This document shows positions 2,474 through 21,949 of a DNA stretch of 29,795 nt, one piece after another. The position numbers were made by a program, and so were the translations under genes. A model generated the notes under the pieces. That model worked only from the letters and a program-made list of their open reading frames with translations. It was not told where the DNA came from and ran no database searches. Positions within the stretch are counted from its first letter, which is position 1; the number at the start of each line of letters is the position of its first letter. This DNA comes from a virus. The stretch is taken from positions 1-29,795 of the IMG/VR virus record IMGVR_UViG_3300008110_000706. The stretch is one strand, 5' to 3'.

Positions 2474-3025
2474 TTATTCAGGAAATCTATTTAGCCATTT
2501 GTAATGAGCACCTTTGTTATAAGATGACCATGAACTCCAATCAATACCGCCTTTTGTCATGTGATAGACAATTTCAGCGTTCTTGACAGGGCTAAATAGC
2601 TCAGCATTAAGATCTAACTCAAACTTATCTCGTCTGTCTGGACCTAGTGTGCCAAGCATATTAATCTGAAAGATTCCAAATGAGGAGTCTCCAGTTTTGG
2701 TGTTTCCATTAAAAGCAAATGGACGACCATTGGATTCAGCCTTTGCAACTGCCCAAGCAGTCCTTAGACCTTTTCCTTTGAACCCTACCGCCTTAAGTAA
2801 TTCAACCAACTGGCTGTCAGTTAAACTTGTCGCATTTTCATACTTAGTAAGCATTTTGTTATTTTTCTCTTCAGAAAGCACAAAAGCCACCTCTAGGGTG
2901 GCAGGCGTAATCGCTTCCTGTTTTGATAAATTGTTTTTAGTAGCATGAGCAGGTACGGCCCCCAAAATAGAGACCAATACGAACGCAGTACTAAGCACCC
3001 CTACTAGCATTTTATCTTTTGTCAA
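2474..3025 (-). CDS. Secreted lysozyme/transglycosylase-like protein
   Basis: A 183-residue protein read from TTG 3025. The TTG start is chosen because AGGAGG (complement at 3032-3037) lies 6 nt upstream; the longer reading from 3067 has no ribosome site. Residues 6-28 form a signal peptide (hydrophobic MLVGVLSTAFVLVSILG, then AVPAHA cleavage motif). Residues ~68-180 resemble the lysozyme-like/SLT superfamily: AWAVAKAESNG with likely catalytic Glu97, then GDSSFGIFQINM, and a late SSYNKGAHYKW. It would cut peptidoglycan outside the membrane. It could be an exported endolysin, a superinfection-related cell-wall enzyme or a host-derived enzyme; no holin is visible nearby. It is the only minus-strand gene here, with its own promoter and terminator, i.e. 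moron-like. Confidence 0.82.
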   Translation of the reverse strand: MTKDKMLVGVLSTAFVLVSILGAVPAHATKNNLSKQEAITPATLEVAFVLSEEKNNKMLTKYENATSLTDSQLVELLKAVGFKGKGLRTAWAVAKAESNGRPFAFNGNTKTGDSSFGIFQINMLGTLGPDRRDKFELDLNAELFSPVKNAEIVYHMTKGGIDWSSWSSYNKGAHYKWLNRFPE

Positions 3026-3031
3026 GTTTTT

Positions 3032-3037
3032 CCTCCT
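3032..3037 (-). promoter_or_regulatory. Shine-Dalgarno deciding the TTG start of the lysozyme gene
   Basis: CCTCCT on the + strand is AGGAGG on the minus strand, 6 nt before TTG 3025. The next in-frame ATG (3010) would be 21 nt away and ATG 3067 lies upstream of the site, so TTG is the best start. Confidence 0.85.
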
Positions 3038-3046
3038 ATAAACAAA

Positions 3047-3067
3047 ATGACACCATAACGGTGTCAT
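3047..3067. promoter_or_regulatory. Operator- or leader-hairpin-like inverted repeat
   Basis: A perfect 8-bp inverted repeat: ATGACACC (3047-3054), loop ATAAC, GGTGTCAT (3060-3067). A second overlapping palindrome, GGTGT-CAT-ACACC, covers 3060-3072. It lies just downstream of the minus-strand -10 and straddles the predicted transcription start, where it could be a repressor operator or a 5' leader hairpin for the lysozyme mRNA. Confidence 0.5.
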
Positions 3068-7198: not shown

Positions 7199-9019
7199 AT
7201 GGCAACAAGAATGCAGCAACGCAGAGGTACTGCTGCTCAATGGATTTCAACTAACAATGGTGATGGGCCAATCCTTGAGGTTGGCGAAATCGGTTTTGAA
7301 ACAGACACTGGCAAGTTTAAAATTGGTGACGGTGTAAATCCTTGGGTAGACCTAGATTATTTCTTAGATGAATCAGAAATAACAAGTATCACTGGAGATT
7401 ATGTTTTATCTTCAACATTGGCACAAAATAATGGCGTTGCCACATTAGATAATTCAGGTAAACTAACATCTTCTCAAATTCCTACAAGTTTAGCAAGCAC
7501 TACATATGTAGATAATGCTGTTTCTGGTCTTGTTGACTCTGCTCCAGGGCTATTGAACACATTAAACGAGCTTGCTGCAGCAGTTAATGACGATCCAACA
7601 TTTTTTACAACGGTATCAACTAATCTGTCTAACCATGAATCAGATACTACAAGCATTCATGGAATTGCAGACACTGCAGAACTTGCTACAAAAACATTTG
7701 CAGCAGAATTGTTAACAAATGCTACAAAGACAAATATTACAATTACTGGTGATAAGAATGGTCTTACAATTACCGCAGAAAACGGTGTAGGAGATTCTAC
7801 AACAGATAATTTAACAGAAGGCACAACAAATAAATATTTTACAAATCAAAGAGCTCTCGATGCAACAGCATCAGCATACGATGCATCTGGGGCAGCTTCA
7901 ACAGCACAAACAAATGCTCAAAATTATGCAGATACAGCAGTCTCTAATCACAGCTCAGATACTACAAATGTCCACGGTATAACAGATACATCAGCACTTG
8001 TAACAACATCTGGAGCGCAGACATTATCAGACAAGACTTTAACATCACCAATAATTAATGGTGCAACAATTGGTGGAAACCTTGTTCCATCTGCAAATGC
8101 AACATATGATTTAGGATCATCTACTAATAAATTTAAAGACCTATATCTATCAGGAACAACTCTTTATTTAGATGCAGCCACAATCGGTCTGCATTCTGGA
8201 AATATTCAATTTAGCCACAGTGGAAATACAACAATTGTTCCAATCGGTGGCGGAGAACACACGGTAGCTACTCAGTCATATGTAGATACAGCAGTATCAA
8301 ATCTAGTTGACACAGCCCCATCAACATTAAACACACTGAATGAGCTTGCTGCAGCAATAAATGATGATGCTTCATATGCATCTACAGTTACTACAGCACT
8401 TGGTTTAAAGGCACCACTAGAGTCGCCAACCTTTACTGGAACGGTAACGCTACCATCAGCAACATCTGGAGCAAACCTAGTAAATATTCCAAACTCTGCT
8501 TTAGATAATAGCTCTATAACAATCAATGGATCAGCAGTATCTCTTGGTGGTTCTACCACAATTGATGCCTTGCCATCTCAAACAAGCCAAAGTGGAAAGT
8601 ATTTAACCACTGATGGATCTATAGCTTCATGGGCAACTATTGATGCTTTGCCATCACAGACAAGCAACTCAGGAAAATATTTAACTACAAATGGAACATC
8701 TGCTTCATGGGCAACTATATCTTTCCCATATGTTCCAATTCCAGTAACATCAGTATCTTCTAATATTTCTCTAACTTCAAATAATAGATACTTTGTAGAT
8801 ACTTCTGCTGCTAGAACTTTAACCCTACCCGCTTCTCCAACGGCAGGGGATGAAATACAAATATTTGATACCACTGGATCTGCTGCTACAAATGTAATTA
8901 CAGTTGCTTCTAATAGCAATAAAATCAACGGTACAGTTCAAGATTTAGAAGTAGACATAGCCTATGATGTATTAGTTCTTGTATATACAGGGTCTGGATA
9001 TGGATGGGTAGTAATATGA
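7199..9019 (+). CDS. Mtd_N-type tail fibre, cassette A
   Basis: A 606-residue protein. Residues 1-55 (MATRMQQRRGTAAQWIS, then GEIGFETDTGKFKIGDG and WVDLDYFL) match the N-terminal domain of the major tropism determinant family (Mtd_N), which anchors fibres to the virion. The body is repetitive (TYVDNAVSGLVD; LNTLNELAAAVNDD; DLGSSTNKFKDLYLSGTTLYLDA; SQTSQSGKYLTTDGS), typical of a trimeric beta shaft. The last ~90 residues (NRYFVDTSAARTLTLPA, then INGTVQDLEVD, VLVYTGSGYGW) form a C-terminal module also present at the end of the 13424 fibre. No cysteines seen; Thr/Ser/Asn-rich. It has a strong Shine-Dalgarno. Likely a receptor-binding or side-fibre component; receptor unknown. Confidence 0.85.
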   Translation: MATRMQQRRGTAAQWISTNNGDGPILEVGEIGFETDTGKFKIGDGVNPWVDLDYFLDESEITSITGDYVLSSTLAQNNGVATLDNSGKLTSSQIPTSLASTTYVDNAVSGLVDSAPGLLNTLNELAAAVNDDPTFFTTVSTNLSNHESDTTSIHGIADTAELATKTFAAELLTNATKTNITITGDKNGLTITAENGVGDSTTDNLTEGTTNKYFTNQRALDATASAYDASGAASTAQTNAQNYADTAVSNHSSDTTNVHGITDTSALVTTSGAQTLSDKTLTSPIINGATIGGNLVPSANATYDLGSSTNKFKDLYLSGTTLYLDAATIGLHSGNIQFSHSGNTTIVPIGGGEHTVATQSYVDTAVSNLVDTAPSTLNTLNELAAAINDDASYASTVTTALGLKAPLESPTFTGTVTLPSATSGANLVNIPNSALDNSSITINGSAVSLGGSTTIDALPSQTSQSGKYLTTDGSIASWATIDALPSQTSNSGKYLTTNGTSASWATISFPYVPIPVTSVSSNISLTSNNRYFVDTSAARTLTLPASPTAGDEIQIFDTTGSAATNVITVASNSNKINGTVQDLEVDIAYDVLVLVYTGSGYGWVVI

Positions 9020-9069: not shown

Positions 9070-10851
9070 ATGGTTCTAAAAAGATCTACTCTATCTTCTT
9101 CATCTTCTTCAGGTGCAGCAAGTAGTGACTTTATTGTTAGCACAGGCACTTCTGGAAATACTACCGTTACATTATCAAAAGAATTCCCAGTTGGCTCATA
9201 CGTAGTTACATCTGCATTATCCGATACCGCATATGATATTTATTTAGTAGCTTCAGACGGCACATCTGCAGGATCTGTCAACTCAACAACTGCATCTACA
9301 ACAATTGATGCATCAAAAGCATTTAATACCGTAATTATTTACGGTGCACAAAATAATGATACTTTTACCTTTACATTTAAGTACGTATTTTCTCCTAGCG
9401 CAGACAACACATCTATTGTGGCTGCAGGTCCAAGAGTTACAAGCGTAGGAACCAATGTTCTTCCAAATGTTGATAGCTCAACAACAATTACAGGTAAAAA
9501 CTTTGCCTCTAATGCAACAGTAACATTCACTGGTACAGATAATGTTGTAAGAAATGCAAAATCTGTAACTAGAAATTCTTCTACATCTTTGACAGTAGTT
9601 AGACCAGATGATTTGCCTAATGCCTATCAACCATATACAATTACTGTTTTAAATCCAGGAATTTCTGCTCCAACATCTACAAACCTTCACAAGCTTGGAA
9701 GCCTATCCGCTGGATCTGTTCCAACATGGTCAACATCTGTTGGAGAGTTATCTACAATTATGACTAGGGGATCTGCGTATTCTCATTCATTAGCAGCATC
9801 AGATCCTGACACTAATGGATCGGTAACATACTCATTAGTATCTGGATCACTACCTTCTGGTTTATCGTTAAACTCATCAACAGGTGTAATATCAGGAACT
9901 TCTAGCGCTAACTTTGGAACATATAGTATTACTGTTCGTGCAACCGACGCTGGTGGAAACTATGTTGATAGAGCATTTACTCTTGCAAACTTGATAGTTT
10001 CTGATACAGATAATTTCAATCGCTCAACATCTGGAAATCTTGGAAGCACTAGCAATAATGCTTCTGTTTGGACAAACCAGCGTGGAACTTGGCAAGCAGA
10101 TGGCTCAAGAGCCTACAGCAATGATTCCGCTGGAACACATGCAGTAGCAACAATTGCAGGATCAACAACAAATGTTTCAAACCTTCAAGCAGATACTCAA
10201 AATGCAGGCGGTGTTGGAGTTGCATTTTGGGTATCTGATGCAAATAATTATTATGCTGCTACAACATATTATTCTACATCTTCAGGCTCTTCAACATCAT
10301 GTACTGGTGGAGGTAGTGGTTTAACAGAGGGTGGATATGCTAGTTCTTGTTGTGCTGGACAAAGTACTTCACAAAGATGGTTAGTGACTACATATTGTTG
10401 CGATGGAACACAGCTTGGACCATCTGCTAGAACAACCACTTCACCATCATCAGGAGCTATAAGCACTTGTAATAATAATTATGGAGGACATTGCGGTGAT
10501 AGTGCTGATGGCCCTTATACATATTATTCTTGCACAACTACCAACGTAACAACATCGTTTACTAATTATTTATCAAACTTTAGAATTATAAATAATGGAT
10601 CTGCTATTGTTAATACACAGTATAATTCAAACACTTCTGGATATCAGACTGCTGGATCAATAGCAGTATCTACATCTGGAAATACAATATCTTATTCTGT
10701 ATATTCTAGTGCTAACAAGAGTGGATTACTTCATTCAGGAAGCACAACTCCTTCAAACCCAGTAAAGGGGAGAAATATTGGAATCTATAAGGGCGATGGC
10801 GGAAGCAGTCAAGGCTCTTATGTTGACAACTTTGATGTAACTTTATCATAA
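9070..10851 (+). CDS. Multidomain fibre: IPT/TIG, Ig-like and lectin-like domain with Cys-rich insertion, cassette A
   Basis: A 593-residue protein. Residues ~1-115 are an N-terminal beta domain shared with the 15514 protein (KEFPVGSYVVTSALSDTAYDI). Residues ~118-205 are IPT/TIG-like (TITGKNFASNATVTFTGTDN). Residues ~215-312 are a putative Ig domain of He_PIG type (YSLVSGSLPSGLSLNSSTG, then VISGTSSANFGTY). Residues ~315-593 look like a concanavalin/laminin-G-type jelly roll (DTDNFNRSTSGNLG.. to YVDNFDVTLS) as in carbohydrate-binding modules. Within it, between YYAATTYYSTSS and YTYYSC, an insertion from C411 to C488 holds eight cysteines, the only cysteines noticed in the protein. The most plausible role is a host-surface adhesin. 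Ser, Thr and Asn are abundant, offering glycosylation sites for the glycosyltransferase encoded three genes later. Confidence 0.8.
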   Translation: MVLKRSTLSSSSSSGAASSDFIVSTGTSGNTTVTLSKEFPVGSYVVTSALSDTAYDIYLVASDGTSAGSVNSTTASTTIDASKAFNTVIIYGAQNNDTFTFTFKYVFSPSADNTSIVAAGPRVTSVGTNVLPNVDSSTTITGKNFASNATVTFTGTDNVVRNAKSVTRNSSTSLTVVRPDDLPNAYQPYTITVLNPGISAPTSTNLHKLGSLSAGSVPTWSTSVGELSTIMTRGSAYSHSLAASDPDTNGSVTYSLVSGSLPSGLSLNSSTGVISGTSSANFGTYSITVRATDAGGNYVDRAFTLANLIVSDTDNFNRSTSGNLGSTSNNASVWTNQRGTWQADGSRAYSNDSAGTHAVATIAGSTTNVSNLQADTQNAGGVGVAFWVSDANNYYAATTYYSTSSGSSTSCTGGGSGLTEGGYASSCCAGQSTSQRWLVTTYCCDGTQLGPSARTTTSPSSGAISTCNNNYGGHCGDSADGPYTYYSCTTTNVTTSFTNYLSNFRIINNGSAIVNTQYNSNTSGYQTAGSIAVSTSGNTISYSVYSSANKSGLLHSGSTTPSNPVKGRNIGIYKGDGGSSQGSYVDNFDVTLS

Positions 10852-10867
10852 TATTGAGGGGTATAAA

Positions 10868-11113
10868 ATGGGAGACATATATTCAAGACCAGCAAGACCT
10901 TGGGATTTGTTTAATAAAAATATAGAAAAAGTTGGAGAGCAAATAGCAGGGGAAAGACTTGATATTTGTAAAACCTGTCCAGAACTAATAAAAGCAACAA
11001 ATCAGTGCAAACAATGCGGGTGCATAATGACGCTAAAAACAAAATTACCAAACGCTTCTTGTCCGCTTGGTAAATGGGGTATAATTAGAGTAGGATTCCA
11101 AGAGGAGGAATAA
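10868..11113 (+). CDS. Small zinc-ribbon-like protein, cassette A
   Basis: An 81-residue protein. After RPARPWDLFN it contains CKTC (C34, C37), CKQCGC (C47, C50, C52) and a final C65 in KTKLPNASCPLGKWG. The pattern CxxC-x9-CxxCxC-x12-C with KTKLPNASCPxGKW is a recognisable small family of tailed phages and probably binds one zinc ion; it may fall under DUF6171, which I cannot verify. The paralogue at 17844 has the same layout. Role unknown: a metal-stabilised virion part or a regulator are both possible. GAGGGG sits 6 nt before the ATG, and the stop overlaps the next start (TAATG). It follows the cysteine-rich fibre in both cassettes. Confidence 0.75.
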   Translation: MGDIYSRPARPWDLFNKNIEKVGEQIAGERLDICKTCPELIKATNQCKQCGCIMTLKTKLPNASCPLGKWGIIRVGFQEEE

Positions 11114-11340
11114 TGACAGAAAATCAGCTACCACCAATGAAGATAGCCTTTGTTATTGATAACAAAGTTGTTGATATCTTGCACACAGATGAAAGGCTTG
11201 CAGCTATTATGCTAAGCAATCCAATCATTCTAGATGTAACTGGAGAAAATGGTCAACACCTAGCTCAGGTTAATTATACATATAACCCAGCGGATGGCTC
11301 GTTTACATCTACAACAATTGTCGCTGACGATAGCGAATAA
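11113..11340 (+). CDS. Small 'VID'-family protein, cassette A
   Basis: A 75-residue protein with a GAGGAGG Shine-Dalgarno and a TAATG overlap with the zinc-ribbon gene. The core KIAFVIDNKVVDILHTDERLA and SNPIILDVTGEN closely match the 18074 protein (GFVIDDEIVDVLYTDERMS, SNPIIIDLSN) and more weakly the 322 protein. The C-terminal third (VNYTYNPADGSFTS) is like the WTYNADQNAVIG of its relative. The predicted shape is a beta hairpin plus helix then beta strands; there are no cysteines. Function unknown; its position between the zinc-ribbon and glycosyltransferase genes is conserved in the second cassette. Confidence 0.72.
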   Translation: MTENQLPPMKIAFVIDNKVVDILHTDERLAAIMLSNPIILDVTGENGQHLAQVNYTYNPADGSFTSTTIVADDSE

Positions 11341-11348
11341 TTTTCTTT

Positions 11349-12032
11349 ATGCCAGTCTTGCATAATGAAAAAATTATTATAGGGTCTTGTGATAATGGAT
11401 TTGTAGACGGTTCATTTTTTTCCAGTATCACAAATATATTAACAGTTAAAGATTACCCATATATACTTAATGGCAATATAAGATCAGACGGACCACTTAT
11501 TCATAAAAATAGAGAAGCCGTTATAAGATATTGGCTATCAAGCACCGATGTAGATTGGCTATTATTTATAGATTCTGATATTGTTTTTACACCAGATGAT
11601 GTAAATTTTTTATGTCAGTCCGCAGATTCAAAAAACAAAAAGATAGTTTCTGGACTATATTTTACTATTCAAAAAATAGAGCCATGTTTCCCTTACCCTG
11701 TTGTTTTTATAAGAACTGAAAAAGGCGAATATCTTGCATTGTCTGAGATTGAAGAAAACTCGGTATCCATGATAGATGCTGCAGGATTAGGATTTGTTTT
11801 AATCCATAGATCAGTTGTTGAAAAAATGTTAAAAAGGTACAGCCTATCTGAGATTTTTGTGTCCACTATTTTTGGAGAAGATATATCCTTTTTTGACAAG
11901 GTGCATGAAATAGGCGAAGATGTATATCTAGATACTCGTGCATCTGTAAAACATATGAAGAGATACCCAATAGACTTAGATTTTCATAAAATGTATGAGT
12001 CTTATAATCTAGAAAAAATGAAAGATAATTAA
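11349..12032 (+). CDS. GT-A-fold glycosyltransferase, cassette A
   Basis: A 227-residue protein. The DxD motif is at D75-S76-D77 in WLLFIDSDIVFTPDDV, preceded by a helix with NREAVIRYWL. GLGFVLIHRSVVEKM follows, then G-E-D at 176-178 in FGEDISFFDKVHEIG, and a late His (H202, SVKHMK). DxD for metal and sugar nucleotide, ED as probable catalytic acid-base, and the terminal His are the usual layout of GT2-type inverting enzymes. It would transfer a sugar from a nucleotide donor; acceptor unknown, perhaps Ser/Thr/Asn of the adjacent fibres, phage virion proteins or host glycans. No membrane segment. No clear Shine-Dalgarno before ATG 11349, so reinitiation after the gene ending at 11340 is likely. 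Confidence 0.75.
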   Translation: MPVLHNEKIIIGSCDNGFVDGSFFSSITNILTVKDYPYILNGNIRSDGPLIHKNREAVIRYWLSSTDVDWLLFIDSDIVFTPDDVNFLCQSADSKNKKIVSGLYFTIQKIEPCFPYPVVFIRTEKGEYLALSEIEENSVSMIDAAGLGFVLIHRSVVEKMLKRYSLSEIFVSTIFGEDISFFDKVHEIGEDVYLDTRASVKHMKRYPIDLDFHKMYESYNLEKMKDN

Positions 12033-12079: not shown

Positions 12080-13408
12080 GTGGCAACAAGAATGCAACAG
12101 CGCAGAGGAACTGCAGCTCAGTGGATTTCAACCCACGACGGAGACGGTCCAATCCTCAACCCAGGTGAGTTGGGATTTGAAACCGATACAGGTAAATTTA
12201 AAATTGGTGATGGGGTAAATCACTGGGTAGACTTAGACTACTTCCTTGATGAATCTGAGATTAATAGTATTACAGGTGATTATGTTCTCACCTCTACCCT
12301 TGGACAAAACGGTGGCGTAGCTACCCTCGATGGTTCAGGAAAGCTAACATCTTCACAGATTCCTAATATCGATGAGATCTCTCAGGAAGCAGTAAATAAC
12401 GCATTAGTTGCGGGTATAGGTTTAGATAAAACTTATAACGATAATGCCAATACAATTACTCTTGACATTGATTCAACAGTAGTAACACTAGATGGATCAC
12501 AAACTTTAACAAATAAAACTATTACATCTCCTTCAGGATTAATAAAGGGTGATGTTGGTTTAGGAAATGTTGATAATACATCAGACGCAGATAAGCCAGT
12601 ATCAACTGCTACTCAGTCAGCACTTGATCTTAAGGCACCACTAGCCTCTCCAACGTTCACAGGAACGGTCTCTGGCGTTACAGCCTCAATGGTTGGCCTT
12701 GGCAACGTAGATAATACTTCAGATGCTAATAAGCCAGTGTCAACAGCAACACAAACAGCTCTTGATCTAAAAGCAAATCTTGCAGCACCAACTTTTACAG
12801 GAACAACTACGACTGATGATCTTGTTGTAGATGGAGACTTTACTACTGTAAATGGAACTAACTTTGCAGCAAGTGCAACAAGCATTGTTATTGAAGATAA
12901 TCTTGTTCAGATTGCTCATCAGAATCCTGCTAATACCGTTGACCTTGGACTTGTTGTTGGATACAACGACGGTACAGCAAAACATGCAGGTATTGTAAGA
13001 GATACATCGGCAAACAAGTGGAAAATTTTTAAGGGTGTAACAACAGAACCTGCTACAACAGTAGATTTTACAGAAGGCTCATTAGATGATCTAGAAGTTG
13101 CTGGTTTTACAGCATCTTCAATTACAGTAGGAGATGTTTCAAATACTGAGTTTGGTTATTTAAATGGAGTAACATCTGCTATTCAAACACAGATCGATGC
13201 AAAAGCACCACTTGCTTCCCCAACATTTACTGGCACTGTTATATTGCCAAATTCAACAGTTACAAATGATATGCTTGCAGGATCAATTGCTAACGATAAA
13301 CTTTCAAATTCATCAGTAACCATAAATGGTTCATCCGTATCTCTGGGCGGTAGTGTTACTATCCAAGCAGGACCAGATGAAATAATGGTTATTATGGGTG
13401 CGTTGTAG
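12080..13408 (+). CDS. Mtd_N-type tail fibre, shortened copy, cassette B
   Basis: A 442-residue protein that starts at GTG 12080 after AGGAGG. It opens with the Mtd_N-type domain (MATRMQQRRGTAAQWIS, ETDTGKFKIGDGVNHWVDL). The body has two GLGNVDNTSDA(D/N)KPVSTATQ repeats, a fibre phrase widespread in phages, each followed by LASPTFTGT or LAAPTFTGT. Around residues 265-330 is a module (NLVQIAHQNPANTVDLGLVVGYN, KHAGIVRDTSANKWKIFKG) also known from other fibre and adhesin proteins. Unlike its relatives at 7199 and 13424 it lacks the ~90-residue C-terminal module ending YGW, stopping abruptly as IQAGPDEIMVIMGAL. It may be a truncated or degenerating copy, or may work with the neighbouring fibre as a hetero-assembly. 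Confidence 0.82.
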   Translation: MATRMQQRRGTAAQWISTHDGDGPILNPGELGFETDTGKFKIGDGVNHWVDLDYFLDESEINSITGDYVLTSTLGQNGGVATLDGSGKLTSSQIPNIDEISQEAVNNALVAGIGLDKTYNDNANTITLDIDSTVVTLDGSQTLTNKTITSPSGLIKGDVGLGNVDNTSDADKPVSTATQSALDLKAPLASPTFTGTVSGVTASMVGLGNVDNTSDANKPVSTATQTALDLKANLAAPTFTGTTTTDDLVVDGDFTTVNGTNFAASATSIVIEDNLVQIAHQNPANTVDLGLVVGYNDGTAKHAGIVRDTSANKWKIFKGVTTEPATTVDFTEGSLDDLEVAGFTASSITVGDVSNTEFGYLNGVTSAIQTQIDAKAPLASPTFTGTVILPNSTVTNDMLAGSIANDKLSNSSVTINGSSVSLGGSVTIQAGPDEIMVIMGAL

Positions 13409-13423
13409 GATTAGGAGATAATA

Positions 13424-15514
13424 ATGGCTAAAAGAATGCAGCAGCGTAGAGGTACAGCAGCTCAATGGATTTCTCTTAATGATGGTGATGGCCCAATTCT
13501 TAATGTTGGTGAAATTGGCTTTGAAACAGATACAGGCAAGTTCAAGATTGGTGATGGACAAAATCCTTGGGTTGATCTAGATTACTTCCTTGACGAGTCA
13601 GAGATTCAAAACATTACAGGCGATTATGTTCTTACATCTACCCTTGGACAATTAAACGGAGTTGCTACGCTTGACGGATCTGGAAAACTTACATCTTCAC
13701 AAATTCCAAATATTGATGAGTTGTCACAAGAAGCTGTAAATAGCGCACTTGTGGCGGGTACAGGTTTAGACAAGACATACAATGATAATGCTAATACCAT
13801 AACAATTGATATTGATTCTACTGTTACAACAAACGATGGTTCACAAACACTTACTAATAAAACTATTAGTGGAACCAGCAACTCACTAAGCAATATTCCA
13901 AACAATGCTTTGGATTATGATTCTATTACTATTAATGGAGAAGTTGTAGCCCTTGGTGGTTCTACAACAATTGATGCACTTCCTTCTCAAACAGGACAAA
14001 ATGGAAAATATTTAACTACTGATGGAGCAGATGCTTCTTGGTCAACAATTGACCTTAGCTCAAAGCAAGATGTAGTTGCTGGAGTTTCAGATTCAGAAAT
14101 TGGATATCTTTCAAATGTAACATCAGATATTCAGTCACAGATTGATTCAAAGGCACCAATCGCCTCCCCAACGTTCACAGGAACAGTCTCTGGCGTTACA
14201 GCCTCAATGGTTGGCCTTGGCAACGTAGATAATACCTCAGATGCAAACAAGCCAGTATCAACTGCTACACAGTCAGCATTAGATGCAAGGTTAGCACTTT
14301 CTGGTGGAACCATGACAGGAGACATTACTCTTGCTGGTGCACCCACACAAGCTCTACATGCTGCAACCAAGGCATATGTCGATGGTATTGCAGAAGGCTT
14401 ACACATTCATGCATCATGCGTTGCTGCCACAACTGGAAACGTTGCAATTGCAACAGAGCTAGAACCTGGAGATCTTGTTGATGGAGTAACTCTTGCAGAA
14501 GGAGATCGTGTTCTTGTAAAGAGCCAAACAAACGCAGCGCAGAATGGTATTTACGTTGTTCAGGCTTCAGGAGCAGCACTTCGTGCAGCAGACTTTAATG
14601 AGCCAATAGAAGTAGACGGTGGAGACTTTGTATTCGTAACAGGTGGAACTACACACGACAACACTGGTTGGGTTCAGACCACAACTAACATAGTGACAAT
14701 TGGAACAGACCCAATTCAATTCACTCAGTTCTCAGGTGCTGGCACATACTTGGCGGGTACAGGATTACAGCTTGATGATAATGAATTTAGTATTGACACA
14801 ACTACAACTGTAGATATTTCAACTGCTCAAACACTTACAAATAAAACATTAACATCTCCAAATATTAATGGAGCAACTATTGGAGGAGATTTAATTCCTT
14901 CAGCAGACTCAACATATGATCTTGGATCATCTACTAATAAATTTAAAGATCTTTATTTATCTGGAACTACACTATATCTTGATGCAGCAACAATAGAGCT
15001 ACACTCTGGAAATATTGCTTTAGGTCATAGCGGAAATACTACAACTGTTCCAATTGGCGGTGGCAATCACACAGTCGCAACACTTGCTGGAGAACAGACA
15101 CTAACCAATAAAACAATAGATGCAGCAAGTAATACTATTTCTAATATTCCAAACGCTGCTTTAGATAACTCAGATGTTACTATTAATGGAGAGTCTGTTT
15201 CTCTTGGTGGAACAATAACAATTCCAACAGGAGCTACAGCACAGGCAGTATCATCAAATATATCATTACAACATAATTATAATTATTTTGTAGACACATC
15301 GGCTGCTAGAACACTGACCCTATCAGCAACCCCTTCTTTAGGAGATACTATTGCTATTATAGATGCCGCTGGATCAGCAGCCACGAATAATATTACAGTA
15401 TCTTCAAATGGTGGTAAAATAAACGGTACAGTACAAGATCTAGAAATAGACGTAAATAATGCTGCTGCAGTATTAGTCTATACAGGATCTAATTACGGAT
15501 GGAGAGTAGGATAA
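13424..15514 (+). CDS. Mtd_N-type tail fibre, long copy, cassette B
   Basis: A 696-residue protein with TTAGGAGA before ATG 13424. It has the Mtd_N-type N-terminus (MAKRMQQRRGTAAQW), then repeats including GLGNVDNTSDANKP. A module at nt ~14340-14740 (AATKAYVDGIAEGLHIH, GDRVLVKSQTNAAQNGIYVVQ, GWVQT, FTQFSGAG) is closely related to one in the fibre at 4286. Then come DLGSSTNKFKDLYLSGTTLYL and the C-terminal YFVDTSAARTLTL / INGTVQDLEIDV / VYTGSNYGWRVG module shared with 7199. So it is a mosaic of parts seen in two other fibres of this window. A 50-nt block is identical to part of the 12080 gene. The stop overlaps the next ATG (TAATG). Confidence 0.85.
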   Translation: MAKRMQQRRGTAAQWISLNDGDGPILNVGEIGFETDTGKFKIGDGQNPWVDLDYFLDESEIQNITGDYVLTSTLGQLNGVATLDGSGKLTSSQIPNIDELSQEAVNSALVAGTGLDKTYNDNANTITIDIDSTVTTNDGSQTLTNKTISGTSNSLSNIPNNALDYDSITINGEVVALGGSTTIDALPSQTGQNGKYLTTDGADASWSTIDLSSKQDVVAGVSDSEIGYLSNVTSDIQSQIDSKAPIASPTFTGTVSGVTASMVGLGNVDNTSDANKPVSTATQSALDARLALSGGTMTGDITLAGAPTQALHAATKAYVDGIAEGLHIHASCVAATTGNVAIATELEPGDLVDGVTLAEGDRVLVKSQTNAAQNGIYVVQASGAALRAADFNEPIEVDGGDFVFVTGGTTHDNTGWVQTTTNIVTIGTDPIQFTQFSGAGTYLAGTGLQLDDNEFSIDTTTTVDISTAQTLTNKTLTSPNINGATIGGDLIPSADSTYDLGSSTNKFKDLYLSGTTLYLDAATIELHSGNIALGHSGNTTTVPIGGGNHTVATLAGEQTLTNKTIDAASNTISNIPNAALDNSDVTINGESVSLGGTITIPTGATAQAVSSNISLQHNYNYFVDTSAARTLTLSATPSLGDTIAIIDAAGSAATNNITVSSNGGKINGTVQDLEIDVNNAAAVLVYTGSNYGWRVG
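14186..14235 (+). repeat. 50-bp perfect direct repeat (second copy; first at 12668-12717)
   Basis: Bases 12668-12717 and 14186-14235 are identical, within a ~70-bp stretch that differs at only one or two more positions. They encode SGVTASMVGLGNVDNT in both fibres, in frame. The surrounding paralogous sequence differs at many synonymous sites, so this block looks like a recent exchange or conversion tract. Confidence 0.8.
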
Positions 15515-17829
15515 TGACACTAAGTTTTAGCACATTAACTGGTGGTGGCGGAGCACAGGCTGATAATAATTTTACTATTATGACAGAGGGCAACGGCTAC
15601 ACCCTGGTAGACCTCACATCCACATACCCAGCTGGAAAATATACAGTTGCTTCAAGACTTTCAGACATTGTTTATGATATTTATTTAATTGCAGAAGATG
15701 GCTCAAATGCAGGGTATCTAGCAGCAAGTTCATATATCCAATTAAACATTACAGCAACAAAGGCATTCAATAAGGTTGTTGTATATGGTGCAACAAACAA
15801 CGATGTTATTAATTTTACATACTCAAATATTTATTCTGCAACAGGTCCATCAACTGGAGAATTTACTGGCGCAGCACCAAGATTAATTTCAATTTCAACA
15901 TCAGATCTTCCAAATCAAAACAATACAACCACAATAACTGGTCAAAACTTTGCTACTGATGTAGCCGTTACATTTACGGGTACAGATAACGTTGCAAGAA
16001 ATGCTAAATCAATTTCTAGAACAAACTCAACATCTATTGTTGTAACACGTCCAGATGATATGCCAACAACATATTCTCCATATACCCTTACAGCTACAAA
16101 TCCTGGAATTGTTGCTCCTGCATCAACAAATACTCATAAGCTTACAAATGCAATTACCGCTGGAAATGCTCCAGTTTGGGTAACTTCAGCAACTTTACCA
16201 GCATATAGAAAAGATGCAGCATACTCTCAAACAATTCAGGCAACAGATGCAGATGGCGGATCATCTATAATTTATTCTATAGTTTCTGGATCATTGCCAA
16301 CTGGAATTACTTTTAATACATCAACAGCAACATTTAGCGGAACACCTACAACTAATGCTGCAAGTCCATATACTTATACAATTCGTGCAACTGATGCTGG
16401 TGCCAACTATGTTGATAGAGCGTTTACAGTACAACAGTTAGCACCAGATGCAGTTACTATTGGTACAGCAACCGATGTTGGAACTAGCAGAGCATTTAAT
16501 GATGGAGCATCTGTAGTTACCTTTACCCCAGCAGCAACTGGCCCTGCAGCAACTTCATATACCGTTACATCCTCTCCAGGAGGGTATACTGCTACTGGCG
16601 CTTCTAGCCCAATTACTGTAACTGGATTACAGTCAAATACATCTTATACATTTACTGTTGTATCAAATAATGCATCTGGACCAAGCTTAACTTCATCTGC
16701 CACAGCGTCTATGACTGCAACTACTGTTCCACAAGCACCGACAATTGGAACAGCCACAGGATCTGGAACAACAGCATCAGTGCCATTTACAGCAAATGCA
16801 ACTGGTGGTAAAGCAATTACTAACTTTGATGTTACATCAAGTCCACTCGGATATAATTACACTGGTGCATCATCTCCAATTTCTGCTACTTCTTTAGCAT
16901 ATGGAAATACCTATACTTTCCAAGCTAGAGCATATAACGCAAATGGATGGTCTCAATATTCATCTTCTTCTAATGGAGTTGCTGTTGCTTATCCTTCATC
17001 AGATTCAGATAACTTTAATAGAACAACATCTGTTGCTCTTGGAAATACAACTGGTACTGGACAATCATGGACAAACCTTTCAGGAACATGGTTTGCAAAT
17101 GGGTCACAGGCACAAGCTAACGGTGATGCAAGAGCAATTATAAGAATGGTCGGAGCACACGGAACAGTACAAGCTGGAACAGTTTCTCCAGGTGTTGGAT
17201 TAGTTTATTGGGCTACCGATTCTAATAATTTAGTCGCTTCTTATCCATATTATACAACTTCAACTTCAAATCAGTGTACTGGTTTTGCACACTGTGCTGG
17301 AACTTCGTGTACCCCAGCAAACTGTTGTGGTGCAGTTGTTGGACCAAACTGTGAAAGAGCATGTGAATGTTCAAATGGATGTTGGGCATATGGATACTCT
17401 TCAACTTCAACCTGTCCAGCTTGCTCTACAACATGTTCAGAACAATGTGGTGCTTCATCATTAGGAACAAGAGGAACATATACATACATGTATTGTTCTG
17501 CATTTCAGTCAGTTACAACAAATAGAACTTATGTAAGAACCGTAAAAACTGTTAATGGAAGCACATCTGTAGTTGACGACTATGAATTAAACAATTCAAG
17601 TGGTGCACCAAATGCTATTAATTCAATGAGAGCGGTAGCATCTTCTAATGGACAGGTTAGTTTGTATACTTGGACTTCTGCAAATTATGGTGGAACACAA
17701 ATGACAACAAGAACCATTTCTCCAGGACCCAATGGTTACGGAACAGGGGTTGGCCTAATCAGAGCTGCCTACGGCAACTACTACTCTCAAGGCGCAACCG
17801 CTGATGATTTTTCATCTAGTGGATTTTAG
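15514..17829 (+). CDS. Multidomain fibre: IPT/TIG, Ig-like, two FN3 and lectin-like domain with Cys-rich insertion, cassette B
   Basis: A 771-residue paralogue of the 9070 protein. The ATG at 15514 overlaps the previous stop; the GGAGAGTAGGAT upstream serves as ribosome site. Residues ~1-210 match the N-terminal and IPT/TIG domains (TITGQNFATDVAVTFTGTDN), ~220-308 the He_PIG-type domain (YSIVSGSLPTGITFNTSTA). Residues ~310-493 are an insertion absent from the 9070 protein: two fibronectin type III-like domains (SYTVTSSPGGYTATGASSP, SYTFTVVSNNASGPS; NFDVTSSPLGYNYTGASSP, TYTFQARAYNANGWSQ). From ~495 (SDSDNFNRTTSVALGN) follows the lectin-like domain with an insertion from C588 to C661 containing 14 cysteines. 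These are the only cysteines noticed. Probable receptor-binding adhesin; the FN3 pair would lengthen the arm. Confidence 0.8.
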   Translation: MTLSFSTLTGGGGAQADNNFTIMTEGNGYTLVDLTSTYPAGKYTVASRLSDIVYDIYLIAEDGSNAGYLAASSYIQLNITATKAFNKVVVYGATNNDVINFTYSNIYSATGPSTGEFTGAAPRLISISTSDLPNQNNTTTITGQNFATDVAVTFTGTDNVARNAKSISRTNSTSIVVTRPDDMPTTYSPYTLTATNPGIVAPASTNTHKLTNAITAGNAPVWVTSATLPAYRKDAAYSQTIQATDADGGSSIIYSIVSGSLPTGITFNTSTATFSGTPTTNAASPYTYTIRATDAGANYVDRAFTVQQLAPDAVTIGTATDVGTSRAFNDGASVVTFTPAATGPAATSYTVTSSPGGYTATGASSPITVTGLQSNTSYTFTVVSNNASGPSLTSSATASMTATTVPQAPTIGTATGSGTTASVPFTANATGGKAITNFDVTSSPLGYNYTGASSPISATSLAYGNTYTFQARAYNANGWSQYSSSSNGVAVAYPSSDSDNFNRTTSVALGNTTGTGQSWTNLSGTWFANGSQAQANGDARAIIRMVGAHGTVQAGTVSPGVGLVYWATDSNNLVASYPYYTTSTSNQCTGFAHCAGTSCTPANCCGAVVGPNCERACECSNGCWAYGYSSTSTCPACSTTCSEQCGASSLGTRGTYTYMYCSAFQSVTTNRTYVRTVKTVNGSTSVVDDYELNNSSGAPNAINSMRAVASSNGQVSLYTWTSANYGGTQMTTRTISPGPNGYGTGVGLIRAAYGNYYSQGATADDFSSSGF

Positions 17830-17837
17830 TGTATAAT
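17829..17837 (+). promoter_or_regulatory. -10 promoter (GTGTATAAT), leaderless type
   Basis: A perfect TATAAT at 17832-17837, with TG immediately before it rather than one base further. It ends 7 nt before ATG 17844, with no Shine-Dalgarno in AGTTGT. Its cassette A equivalent (10868) instead uses a Shine-Dalgarno. Confidence 0.55.
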
Positions 17838-17843
17838 AGTTGT

Positions 17844-18071
17844 ATGGAAAATAACAGACCAGCAAGACCTTGGGATTTGTTCAATGCTGAAATAGGAAAA
17901 GTAAGTATTGAAGTTAAACAAAAAAGATTAGATATTTGTAAGTCATGTCCAGAATTTGTTAATTTAACATCTCAATGTAAAAAATGTGGGTGTATAATGA
18001 ATCTTAAGACAAAACTTCCAAATGCATCATGCCCTATTGGTAAATGGGGAACAGAAGAGAAAGTAGGATAA
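17844..18071 (+). CDS. Small zinc-ribbon-like protein, cassette B
   Basis: A 75-residue paralogue of the 10868 protein: RPARPWDLFN, CKSC (C32, C35), CKKCGC (C45, C48, C50) and C63 in KTKLPNASCPIGKWG. All six cysteines are conserved with identical spacing, supporting a metal-binding site. ATG 17844 is chosen over GTG 17829 because alignment to the relative starts here and the upstream codons are the promoter itself. Identity to the cassette A copy is much higher than that of the flanking fibres, so this protein is under stronger constraint. Role unknown. Confidence 0.75.
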   Translation: MENNRPARPWDLFNAEIGKVSIEVKQKRLDICKSCPEFVNLTSQCKKCGCIMNLKTKLPNASCPIGKWGTEEKVG

Positions 18072-18073
18072 AA

Positions 18074-18367
18074 ATGACACAGGAAATAGGCGAAGACACT
18101 TCAGCCCCATCAGTTGCACAAACACCTCCAAAATCAATTGGATTTGTTATCGATGATGAAATTGTGGATGTTCTTTATACAGATGAAAGAATGTCAGCAA
18201 TACTATTAAGCAATCCAATTATTATAGATTTATCAAATGTTATAACAAATGCGCCAGATACATCTACATACAGACCAACTATTGGTTGGACATACAATGC
18301 AGATCAAAATGCAGTTATAGGCATGGATGGCGAAAACAATCCAATTGTTTTAAATCTATCAAACTAA
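18074..18367 (+). CDS. Small 'VID'-family protein, cassette B
   Basis: A 97-residue protein starting at ATG 18074, two bases after the previous stop. It is close to the 11113 protein in the core (GFVIDDEIVDVLYTDERMS, LLSNPIIIDLSN) but has a longer, acidic and proline-containing N-terminal extension (TQEIGEDTSAPSVAQTPPKS) and a slightly longer middle. A longer reading in the same frame exists from 18044, but that overlaps the zinc-ribbon gene and lacks relatives. Function unknown. Confidence 0.7.
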   Translation: MTQEIGEDTSAPSVAQTPPKSIGFVIDDEIVDVLYTDERMSAILLSNPIIIDLSNVITNAPDTSTYRPTIGWTYNADQNAVIGMDGENNPIVLNLSN

Positions 18368-18380
18368 AGAGAGGTAAAAA

Positions 18381-19082
18381 ATGGGGGAAAAAACAAAAAT
18401 TGATTATGTATTTCTTTTTCCAGGAAAAAATTTTTCTATAAATTTTATCAACTCCTGGACAAATACAATGATATATTTATATGAAAACGGATATACCTTT
18501 GCTAGTGCTTTTAAGTATGCGCCAATAGTTCATGAAGTTAGAAACCAATTAGTAGCATCTAAAATACATTTTGAGGCAAAACAAACATCTAAAATATTTA
18601 ATGATAGGACTAATAGCCAGATACCATTCTCTGGAGGTATTGAGGCAAAAAAGGTTATATTTATAGATAGCGATATTGTTTGGAACATAGAAGATCTAGA
18701 AAAAATATTACACACTGATAAAGACATTATGTGTGGTGCATATTTTCTTGAAAGTGGTCAAGATATGTGTATTGTAGATAAAGATGGATTATTTATGGAT
18801 ATGAGCAAAATAAAAGATAGGTCAGATATATTTGAAATCCTATCTGGAGGAATGGGGTTTGTATCTGTAAATTATGAAGTATTAGAAAAAATAGGATTTC
18901 CTTGGTTTAATACATTGTATCTTAAAGATGAAGAAAATGGGGTTCAGTTTGTTGGGGAAGACACTTTTTTCTTTTATAGAGCACAAGAAGAAGGGTTTAA
19001 AGTTTTTTGCGATCCAAGTATTAGGATTGGACACGAAAAATCAAGAACACTTATGTTGTTAGACTATGATCAGGCACATTAA
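18381..19082 (+). CDS. GT-A-fold glycosyltransferase, cassette B
   Basis: A 233-residue protein with GAGAGG before the ATG. DxD is at D96-S97-D98 in KKVIFIDSDIVWNIEDLEKIL. GGMGFVSVNYEVLEK parallels GLGFVLIHRSVVEK of the 11349 enzyme. G-E-D at 192-194 (VGEDTFFFYRAQEEGFKVFCD) and H218 (IRIGHEKS) complete the layout. An early helix with HEVRNQLVASKI corresponds to the NREAVIRYWL helix. Same family as the cassette A enzyme but clearly diverged, so donor or acceptor may differ. The stop overlaps the start of the DUF6065-like gene (TAATG), suggesting joint expression. No membrane segment; it would act in the cytoplasm. Confidence 0.78.
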   Translation: MGEKTKIDYVFLFPGKNFSINFINSWTNTMIYLYENGYTFASAFKYAPIVHEVRNQLVASKIHFEAKQTSKIFNDRTNSQIPFSGGIEAKKVIFIDSDIVWNIEDLEKILHTDKDIMCGAYFLESGQDMCIVDKDGLFMDMSKIKDRSDIFEILSGGMGFVSVNYEVLEKIGFPWFNTLYLKDEENGVQFVGEDTFFFYRAQEEGFKVFCDPSIRIGHEKSRTLMLLDYDQAH

Positions 19083-19768
19083 TGTTTAAAAAAGAACAAA
19101 GAGTAATTCGCTACGACTCTAGAGAAAAAAATCTACCACATTTTGATAAAGCTATTAATCATATTCCAAAATGGTGGAAAGATGGAAATGCCTATATTCC
19201 AGATCACGGTCCTTTTGAAAATAGGGCTATGAAGCTATGTGTTCCATTTTTAGAGGCAATTACATTTGGATATGTAATACCAACACCATGTGATATTATG
19301 GTTCAGGTAGTAGATAACAAAATTAAACTTTTATGGCCAGATATGCCTTTTAAAATAGACAAGAGAGATTCGTCTTGGAATCCTACTTTACCCGTACCGT
19401 CTGGACATTATCCAGATCAATATACTTGGGGGGCAAACACAGTAATAGAGTTACCTAAAGGTTATAGTGCGCTATATACACATCCGTTAAATCGGCATGA
19501 CCTCCCTTTTACAACGCTGTCAGGGGTTGTTGACCTAGATATTACCCTTTCTTCTGGACAGTTACCGTTTTATTTAAAAAAGGGATTTGAAGGTTTGATT
19601 CCACAAGGAACTCCATTTGTTCAAATTCTACCTTTTAAAAGAGAAAATTGGATTTCAGAAACAGATAATACGCTGTATGATAAATCTATAGAGGCCAACA
19701 ATAACTCTTTGTCTGTTTTAAGTGGATGGTATAAAAAAAATAGATGGCATAGAAAAACTTTTGAATAA
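19082..19768 (+). CDS. DUF6065-like protein, copy 3
   Basis: A 228-residue member of the same family as the proteins at 562 and 1272. Motifs: PKWWKDGN, KLCVPFLEAITFGYVIP, ELPKGYSALYTHP, GVVDLD, and LIPQGTPFVQILPFKRENW. It is nearer to copy 1 than to copy 2. The TAATG overlap with the glycosyltransferase gene makes this the one place where the DUF6065-type protein is directly coupled to a predicted sugar-transfer enzyme. No catalytic residues can be named; conserved Trp, His-Pro and Asp residues would suit a small-molecule or sugar-binding protein, which is speculation. Confidence 0.75.
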   Translation: MFKKEQRVIRYDSREKNLPHFDKAINHIPKWWKDGNAYIPDHGPFENRAMKLCVPFLEAITFGYVIPTPCDIMVQVVDNKIKLLWPDMPFKIDKRDSSWNPTLPVPSGHYPDQYTWGANTVIELPKGYSALYTHPLNRHDLPFTTLSGVVDLDITLSSGQLPFYLKKGFEGLIPQGTPFVQILPFKRENWISETDNTLYDKSIEANNNSLSVLSGWYKKNRWHRKTFE

Positions 19769-19918: not shown

Positions 19919-21949
19919 ATGTCAGATGTTTTTTCGTTTCGTCTTCTAGAAGATTTTGTTAATAAGTATAAGGATGTTGAGCCTCCTTTTGGCTTTACCG
20001 ACGCAGGTAGCAACTCTCTTGGAGAGATTACATTTATCCGTACTTATTCCCGTGTAAAAGAGGACGGTACAAAGGAACGCTGGTATGAAGTCTGTAAGCG
20101 TGTAATTGAAGGAATGTACTCAGTACAAAAGAACCATGCTAAGGAGAATAGACTACCTTGGAATGACAATAAGGCACAAAAGTCTGCACAAGAAGCTTTT
20201 CAAAGAATGTTTGAACTAAAGTGGACACCTCCAGGACGTGGTATGTGGGCATTTGGTACACCTATGACCATGGAGAAGCGTAACTCTGCTTCCCTTCAAA
20301 ATTGTGCAATGGTATCTACTCGTGACATTGACCGTAATGATCCAGGGGCCCTATTTGCCTGGGTTATGGATGCTCTAATGCTTGGTATTGGGGTTGGCTT
20401 TGATACTCTTGGTCAGGATAAGCAGATGCCTATCTTTGCTCCTACAGAGCCAGTATCTATTTATGAAATTCCAGATACTCGTGAAGGATGGGTTGAGTCA
20501 GTTCGTCTTTTAATTAACTCTTTCTTAAGACAAAATCAGCCAATTCAAGAATTCAACTATGACCTTATCCGTCCGCTAGGAGCACCCATTAAGGGCTTTG
20601 GTGGCGTTGCAAGCGGTCCACAGCCATTGATTGACCTACATAACCAAATAAGAAAAGTTATCGGCTCTAGAGCTGGAGAGGTTCTAGATAGTCGTGCTAT
20701 TGTAGACATTGTTAATCTTATTGGTACATGTGTTGTTTCTGGCAATGTTCGTCGTTCTGCAACACTTGCATTAGGAACACCTCAAGATGGATCATTTATT
20801 AATTTGAAGAATCCAGAAGTATTTCCAGAAAGAAATTCATATGATCCAAAAAATCCAGGTTGGGCGTGGATGAGTAACAACTCAATCGCTGCTGAGGTTG
20901 GAACAAAGTATGAAGACTATGTAGATTTAATTGCAGATAACGGAGAGCCAGGTTTTATTTGGCTAGATGTTGCTCGTAATTATGGCCGTCTTGCAGATGC
21001 TCCTGATTATAAGGATACTCGCATTATGGGCTTCAATCCTTGTGCGGAGCAGCCATTGGAATCATACGAACTTTGTACACTTGTAGAAGTGCACCTAAAT
21101 CGTCATGAATCTAGGGAGGACTTCCTCAAGACATTGAAGTTTGCATACTTGTATGGAAAAACTGTAACTCTTATGCCAACACATTGGCCAGTAACAAATG
21201 GAATTATGCAACGCAATCGTCGTATTGGAACATCTCTAACAGGTATTGCTGCATTTGCTGATCAGCATGGCCTGCCAACAACTCGTGAGTGGATGGACGA
21301 AGGATATTCAACTATTCGCAAGTATGACCATCAGTATTCTGAATGGTTGTGTGTTCGTGAATCAGTTCGTGTAACAACAGTAAAGCCATCAGGATCAGTA
21401 TCACTTCTTTCTGGAGCCACACCTGGAGTTCACTGGGGACCTGGTGGAGAGTTTTACCTTCGTGCTATTCGTTTTGGTAATCAAGATCCAATGCTACATC
21501 TTTTCAAAGCTGCAGGGTATAAGATTGAAGACGATCTAGTGTCAGCAAATACTTCAGTAGTCTATTTCCCAGTTGCATCAGGACATAAACGTTCTGAAAA
21601 GCAGGTAAGCCTATTTGAAAAGATTGGTCTGGCAGCAACTGCTCAGAAATATTGGTCAGATAATGGTGTTTCTGTAACTCTTTCATTTGATAAGGAAACA
21701 GAAAAGCAATTTGTTGCTCCAGCACTTAATCTTTATGAAGGTGAACTAAAGGCTGTTTCATTCCTTCCAATGGGTAATAAGACATACCCTCAACAGCCAT
21801 ATACAGAAATCTCACGAGAAGAGTATAATGCTTATGTTGGCACAATTGGCAAGATCGACTGGTCAGCCATTTATGACGGTAAGGATAATCTAGATGCAGA
21901 ATCTGAAAAATACTGTTCGACAGACGCATGTGAGATTAAGCTATATTAA
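19919..21949 (+). CDS. Adenosylcobalamin-dependent (class II, monomeric) ribonucleoside-triphosphate reductase
   Basis: A 676-residue enzyme that converts NTPs to dNTPs for phage DNA synthesis, using B12 to make the thiyl radical. Landmarks of the Lactobacillus-type RTPR are present in order: SLQNCAMVS (C129), GTCVVSGNVRRSA (R-R-S after the Cys271 strand), NPCAEQPLESYELCTL with C375 (thiyl radical position), E377 and C386 eleven residues on, KPSGSVSLLSGATPGVHW, and a C-terminal CSTDAC (C666, C671), the redox pair that re-reduces the active site. C375 to C386 has the same spacing as C408 to C419 of the L. leichmannii enzyme. It is somewhat shorter than that ~740-residue protein. The gene is isolated by a terminator, own promoter and leader hairpin. 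Placement between fibre and head genes is unusual for a nucleotide-metabolism gene. Confidence 0.93.
   Translation: MSDVFSFRLLEDFVNKYKDVEPPFGFTDAGSNSLGEITFIRTYSRVKEDGTKERWYEVCKRVIEGMYSVQKNHAKENRLPWNDNKAQKSAQEAFQRMFELKWTPPGRGMWAFGTPMTMEKRNSASLQNCAMVSTRDIDRNDPGALFAWVMDALMLGIGVGFDTLGQDKQMPIFAPTEPVSIYEIPDTREGWVESVRLLINSFLRQNQPIQEFNYDLIRPLGAPIKGFGGVASGPQPLIDLHNQIRKVIGSRAGEVLDSRAIVDIVNLIGTCVVSGNVRRSATLALGTPQDGSFINLKNPEVFPERNSYDPKNPGWAWMSNNSIAAEVGTKYEDYVDLIADNGEPGFIWLDVARNYGRLADAPDYKDTRIMGFNPCAEQPLESYELCTLVEVHLNRHESREDFLKTLKFAYLYGKTVTLMPTHWPVTNGIMQRNRRIGTSLTGIAAFADQHGLPTTREWMDEGYSTIRKYDHQYSEWLCVRESVRVTTVKPSGSVSLLSGATPGVHWGPGGEFYLRAIRFGNQDPMLHLFKAAGYKIEDDLVSANTSVVYFPVASGHKRSEKQVSLFEKIGLAATAQKYWSDNGVSVTLSFDKETEKQFVAPALNLYEGELKAVSFLPMGNKTYPQQPYTEISREEYNAYVGTIGKIDWSAIYDGKDNLDAESEKYCSTDACEIKLY

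Follow-up and report, generated by a model that had tools for sequence, protein, structure and literature searches.

Even-numbered, hypervariable cysteine-rich inserts at one site in a lectin-like domain of phage fibres: a candidate disulphide-stapled finger

Results

Two related fibre cassettes in a virus record

The window, by which we mean the whole stretch of DNA analysed (29,795 nucleotides), makes up a 29.8-kb virus record, the genes of which include those for portal, head maturation protease and capsid. Two paralogous fibres, A and B, are members of two related cassettes, the features of which are collected in Table 1. Both lie in a tail-fibre cluster, as would be expected of receptor-binding proteins: fibre genes matching Mtd_N and a phage tail-fibre PHROG stand directly upstream, and tail-fibre and glycosyltransferase-like genes are found on either side of the insert-bearing fibre.

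Several other features of the window deserve mention. The whole host-recognition cassette is duplicated between 7199 and 19082, with copies that are about 29-88% identical and that comprise Mtd_N fibres, an Ig/lectin fibre, a DUF6171 gene, a small ORF and a glycosyltransferase-like gene. Three fibres (7199-9019, 12080-13408 and 13424-15514) share near-identical N-terminal 95 residues, the first being 87-88% identical to each of the other two, and then diverge, which suggests from sequence that they are mosaic ends on one attachment module. Three paralogues of phrog_7084, a family of unknown function, flank the fibre region at both ends (562-1275, 1272-1985 and 19082-19768; about 31-33% identical). 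A gene for a B12-dependent (class II) ribonucleotide reductase (19919-21949) stands in the interval from the fibre cassettes to the portal gene. Among the plus-strand structural genes is one ORF on the minus strand (2474-3067; 197 aa), which has a secretion-signal-like start; on visual inspection it looks like a lysozyme-type transglycosylase, and it has no PHROG match.

Table 1. Positions in the window of the two fibres, their domains and inserts, and the genes that follow them
Feature	Position	Strand	Remarks
Fibre A, 593-aa paralogue of fibre B	9070..10851	+	
Concanavalin-A-like jelly roll (predicted), fibre A C-terminus	10009..10848	+	AF2, VIA
Cys-rich insert A	10300..10533	+	78 aa, 8 Cys (C411-C488)
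DUF6171 zinc-ribbon gene behind fibre A	10868..11113	+	PF19668 above cut-off; 70% identical to copy B
Small ORF, cassette A	11113..11340	+	
Glycosyltransferase-like gene, cassette A	11349..12032	+	phrog_34859 E 1.2e-39
Fibre B, 776 aa; He_PIG and FN3 Ig-like domains, C-terminal lectin-like domain	15499..17829	+	Pfam; 48% identity to fibre A in N-terminal part
Concanavalin-A-like jelly roll (predicted), fibre B C-terminus	16990..17826	+	AF2, VIA
Cys-rich insert B	17275..17496	+	74 aa, 14 Cys (C593-C666), beta-ribbon tip
DUF6171 zinc-ribbon gene behind fibre B	17829..18071	+	PF19668 above cut-off; conserved neighbour
Small ORF, cassette B	18044..18367	+	45% identity over 60 aa to 11113-11340 ORF
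Glycosyltransferase-like gene, cassette B	18381..19082	+	phrog_1574, phrog_34859; 29% to copy A

The cysteine-rich inserts lie in a lectin-like domain

The initial annotation had placed a 14-cysteine stretch, CTGFAHC...YTYMYC, in fibre B. Its nucleotide coordinates and cysteine count are exact on translation, in which the stretch spans residues 593-666; the residue numbers that it gave (C588-C661) were off by five. It had also located an eight-cysteine stretch at the same place in the paralogue, and insert A (residues 411-488) does occupy the homologous position. Neither fibre contains a cysteine outside its insert. Identity between the two fibres is 48-49% in the N-terminal parts and about 30-31% in the flanking lectin domains. 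The statement that the inserts have almost no alignable sequence holds for A versus B but not when the inserts of other phages are compared, since the first unit of insert B, CTGFAHCAGTSCTPANCCGAV, is similar to insert units in the relatives L028, L030, L039 and L047.

No Pfam family matches the insert-bearing C-terminal domain. For fibre B, an AF2 model (50 sequences) has a pLDDT above 90 over a jelly roll and places insert B at the end of a long ribbon made of two strands (81-102 and 166-188), with a pLDDT below 50 in the insert core. The fibre A domain was modelled as a whole (mean pLDDT 90.1), its insert adding further strands and a single helix to the ribbon. VIA comparison of the fibre B domain gave Z scores of 16.9 to the C-terminal domain (CTD) of gp20, the central fibre protein of mycobacteriophage Douge, and 15.8 to CBM66, and that of the fibre A domain gave 15.5 to CBM66 and 15.2 to the Douge gp20 CTD; these resemblances came from VIA, as Foldseek against the PDB alone returned nothing below 0.001. 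The fold lies near those of the Douge central fibre CTD and the TM4 gp23 RBD. With a two-sheet jelly roll whose core is modelled at pLDDT above 90 and which scores Z 15-17, the C-terminal domain is predicted to be of the concanavalin-A-like lectin/CBM type, with putative carbohydrate binding. A sequence profile compared with the PDB gave only weak matches, to alphavirus E1 (best E 0.16), which we judged to be chance arising from Ser/Thr/Cys composition.

Homologues carry their inserts at a single site

Four scans of viral contigs, together with profile extraction, yielded 88 distinct domains from uncultured phage contigs. The insert had been proposed to occupy a single structural loop with conserved edges, and this holds across the homologues: a cysteine-rich insert is present at one common site, rather than at independent ones, in 86 of the 88. 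These 86 inserts range from 46 to 431 residues and from 4 to 64 cysteines, and form 55 clusters at 60% insert identity. Cysteine makes up 13.2% of insert residues versus 0.1% of flank residues (61 inserts), an enrichment far above chance. The other two domains (those of the L087, L089, L090 type) have a closed hairpin (WWAAVPRYSLSDGVYL), and cysteine-rich segments joined by poly-proline are placed after the domain instead. One such fibre, L087:3845-5938, has the empty hairpin and ends in cysteine-rich segments linked by long proline runs.

The domain had no tblastn match in 50,697 records of named phages, and 21 pattern matches in cellular genomes included no relative. Ten diverse relatives gave no Pfam domain, and the only PHROG matches were to unnamed families, in the N-terminal leaders of three relatives. 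Our literature search found no description of hypervariable cysteine-rich phage fibres like these.

Inserts diverge faster than their flanks

Of 25 independent pairs, 24 have an insert that is less similar than its flanks (p 8e-7); the exception is L031/L034, in which the insert is the more conserved. Flanks that are 98% identical enclose inserts that are 78% (L036/L037) or 83% (L093/L094) identical, and in several pairs inserts of 58-86% identity stand beside flanks of 94-100%. The core thus varies between conserved edges as had been described, and low variation among homologues, which would have spoken against that description, was not what we found. Positive selection of the classical kind, which the initial annotation had suggested looking for, is not a general signal: most insert dN/dS values lie at 0.1-0.7, and only in a few pairs do they rise above 1. 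Insert dS is frequently elevated as well, which points to recombination. In L031/L034, dS is 0.56 in the flanks and 0.16 in the insert, and in L036/L037 it is 0.10 and 0.24, respectively; within this group of four, the nearest relative differs between flank and insert. Insert recombination is the simplest reading of these sequences, with the caveat that metagenome assemblies may be chimeric in variable regions.

Cysteine numbers are even and change in steps of even size

Insert limits were set by a mechanical rule. The number of cysteines is even in all 86 inserts and likewise in nine more divergent relatives. Counted over the whole ORF, it is odd in 25 of 84 cases, owing to single cysteines elsewhere, and other ORFs of the same loci that have at least five cysteines divide into 30 even and 40 odd. 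The cysteine number is unequal in 13 of the 25 independent pairs, and the difference is even in each of the 13. In L087/L089, the segments separated by poly-proline contain 2, 18, 12, 6 and 6 cysteines, each an even number. Cysteine is also the residue best conserved between related inserts (96%; next best, 82%). The even counts and paired changes in number give strong indirect support to disulphide pairing, and we infer that all insert cysteines probably pair in this way.

Several long inserts have two arms of matched repeats

Several long inserts can be read as repeats that ascend one arm and different repeats that descend the other; the motifs were picked once the sequences had been read, and regex counts are inexact for L047, L092 and L127. 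Two CGTQCSG units ascend and two CxxNCxT units descend in L064, L065 and L074, whereas L071 has three up and three down in place of the two and two of L064. Six and six are enclosed within two and two in L069, the outer unit types of which are on opposite arms relative to L085. Arm repeats number three and three in L024 and one and one in L172, and inserts with one cysteine per repeat divide at their longest gap into 5 and 5 (L086 group) or 9 and 9 (L140). A lone CTG up-unit and a lone QPT down-unit stand on an equal rung from the base in five inserts, this rung being the third in L084, L085 and L092 and the fourth in L127 and L138. A sequence-blind measure supports this reading: the mirror symmetry of cysteine spacing gave a combined z of 3.2 over 51 non-redundant inserts, and insert B is itself mirror-symmetric (shuffle p 0.022). 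As in a disulphide-stapled antiparallel hairpin, which these long inserts resemble by their patterns, the repeats appear to be matched between arms.

The likeness to knottins that had been proposed for the inserts did not survive this comparison. Knottins have six cysteines in fixed order with knot connectivity; the inserts, with 4 to 64 cysteines, have no fixed framework, and the long ones look like two-armed disulphide ladders.

Two further loci, L128:664-3162 and L135:2382-4343, contain 11 and 5 tandem self-contained four-cysteine units, CTGxTVSCTDxxNTCxPxxxCG, which are apparently a one-armed alternative to the ladder.

A DUF6171 gene is a conserved neighbour

Among 86 distinct copies with enough sequence downstream to show it, 64 have a DUF6171 gene within 400 nt, on the same strand (117 of 182 before duplicate removal), and another 14 have it at 0.4-2.6 kb. 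Overlap of a few bases with the fibre gene is frequent. It was also present in 11 of 13 further records examined over their full length, the two that lack it being 7- and 12-kb fragments. The hint that a following zinc-ribbon gene gives of metal or thiol chemistry in maturation is therefore upheld as to the conserved neighbour. DUF6171 also occurs, however, in cyanophages, Stenotrophomonas phages and others, near fibres or genes without cysteine-rich inserts; as the fibres beside it in cultured phages are low in cysteine, the neighbourhood does not establish a thiol/metal maturation role. A putative role of DUF6171 as a fibre chaperone or in thiol chemistry is possible. Our literature search found no paper that mentions DUF6171.

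Discussion

The binding of phages to their receptors is quick to evolve, and among dedicated means of diversifying it retroelements are the best known. We consider it probable that the inserts described here form a disulphide-stapled hypervariable finger in a lectin beta hairpin, within the C-terminal domain of a phage tail-fibre or receptor-binding protein. The insert cysteines would all pair as disulphides once the virion has left the cytoplasm, which is reducing. Antiparallel zipping would join the two arms; in insert B, the expected cross-arm pairs would be C610-C666 and 618/622/624/628 with 650/646/642/639. Loops rich in Tyr, Ser, Gly and Asn, set between the staples, would touch the host surface beside or beyond the lectin face. 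We infer that the finger may bind the receptor, as a putative, swappable host-recognition loop. Diversity would arise through insert recombination between related phages and not through a retroelement, with paired repeat units gained or lost together adding to it. We suggest, more tentatively and with the balance slightly against it, that this modular antiparallel "disulphide zipper" is a previously undescribed, retroelement-free way of diversifying, in which matched up and down units are gained, lost or swapped in twos on an unchanging lectin scaffold. We place the insert-bearing fibres among putative phage receptor-binding lectins, and there is a serious chance that the zipper is a new diversification system.

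How else might the inserts be read? One possibility, which we think unlikely though worth serious thought, is that they are purely structural stalks, that is, rigid, protease-proof spacers or stabilisers that vary by drift in a permissive loop while the lectin face alone binds the host. Insert dN/dS values mostly below 1, the spacer-like variability of repeat number and the absence of the hairpin insert from L087, L089 and L090 are all consistent with such a stalk. However, the L087 relatives retain a cysteine-rich stretch elsewhere, and both the divergence of inserts beside nearly identical flanks in several pairs and the incongruent flank and insert divergence in L031/L034/L036/L037 suggest exchange over slow drift. 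It is far less probable that the cysteines bind Zn or Fe, with the DUF6171 protein as a metal or thiol helper. Phage assembly is cytoplasmic and the DUF6171 gene adjoins most copies, as this would lead one to expect, but cultured phages without such inserts carry the gene too. Four-cysteine metal sites are, moreover, a poor explanation, because a count of 2 mod 4 is frequent (23 of 61 inserts) and CxxC is not enriched: in a shuffle test, CC, CxC and CxxC were all rarer than expected (for CxxC, 98 versus 137).

That the disulphides serve as a redox switch, locking the fibre until cleavage or exchange at the surface of the host triggers infection, strikes us as very unlikely. There is a precedent in phage Milano, whose disulphide network has to open for tail contraction (PMC10811340), but the locking bonds of Milano link different tail proteins, and the even count per chain found here suggests intrachain staples. 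Rewriting of the insert from a template repeat by the reverse transcriptase of a diversity-generating retroelement is the least credible of these readings, and we hardly expect it to be true. Mtd_N fibres stand in the same cassette and the fibre region is hypervariable; against this, RVT_1 was found neither in the window nor in any of 35 related records of up to 109 kb, some of which may be fragments, and this failure to find a reverse transcriptase makes such an element unlikely. Nor is variation confined to adenines, as variable codons extend beyond them and include multi-base replacements (L093/L094/L095 and L031/L034/L036/L037), and insert lengths are very unequal.

If the disulphide-stapled finger is real, it would offer a natural scaffold for evolvable binding with a readable rule (even cysteine number, matched arms), a supply of disulphide-stapled repeat hairpins to protein designers and, for viral metagenomes, a sequence marker of host-recognition genes. 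It would also raise the puzzle of how proteins of phages made in a reducing cytoplasm come to have up to 32 disulphides.

Parts of this arrangement have counterparts in known systems. The Douge gp20 CTD (PDB 8zdp, 8zdq) is likewise a fibre C-terminal jelly roll (rmsd 2.6 over 164 residues), but it spans only residues 689-878, against 279 residues for the domain in the window; the latter has the cysteine-rich insert, and the two do not match at the sequence level. The Douge tip-CTD is reported to bind both M. smegmatis and glycans of mycobacteria, in a study that regards the central fibre as a probable receptor-binding protein (PMC13033339). CBM66 of Bacillus subtilis (PDB 4b1m, 4azz) shares the jelly-roll fold; unlike the window domain, it is a bacterial enzyme module of 161-165 residues without a long excursion, at 16% identity. 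Agrobacterium phage Milano also has extensive tail disulphides, but those described cross-link tail proteins and lock contraction, and cysteine makes up 2.1% of its structural proteins (PMC10811340) versus 13% in the inserts, which vary. Mtd-type tropism determinants of diversity-generating retroelements similarly set a hypervariable recognition surface in a conserved phage-fibre scaffold; here, in contrast, we found no reverse transcriptase and no adenine-only variation, and changes in length and repeat number are large. Finally, knottins, conotoxins and similar disulphide-rich hypervariable peptides combine conserved cysteines with freely varying loops. The phage inserts do so as well, but without a fixed framework, with two-armed repeats and housed within a lectin domain.
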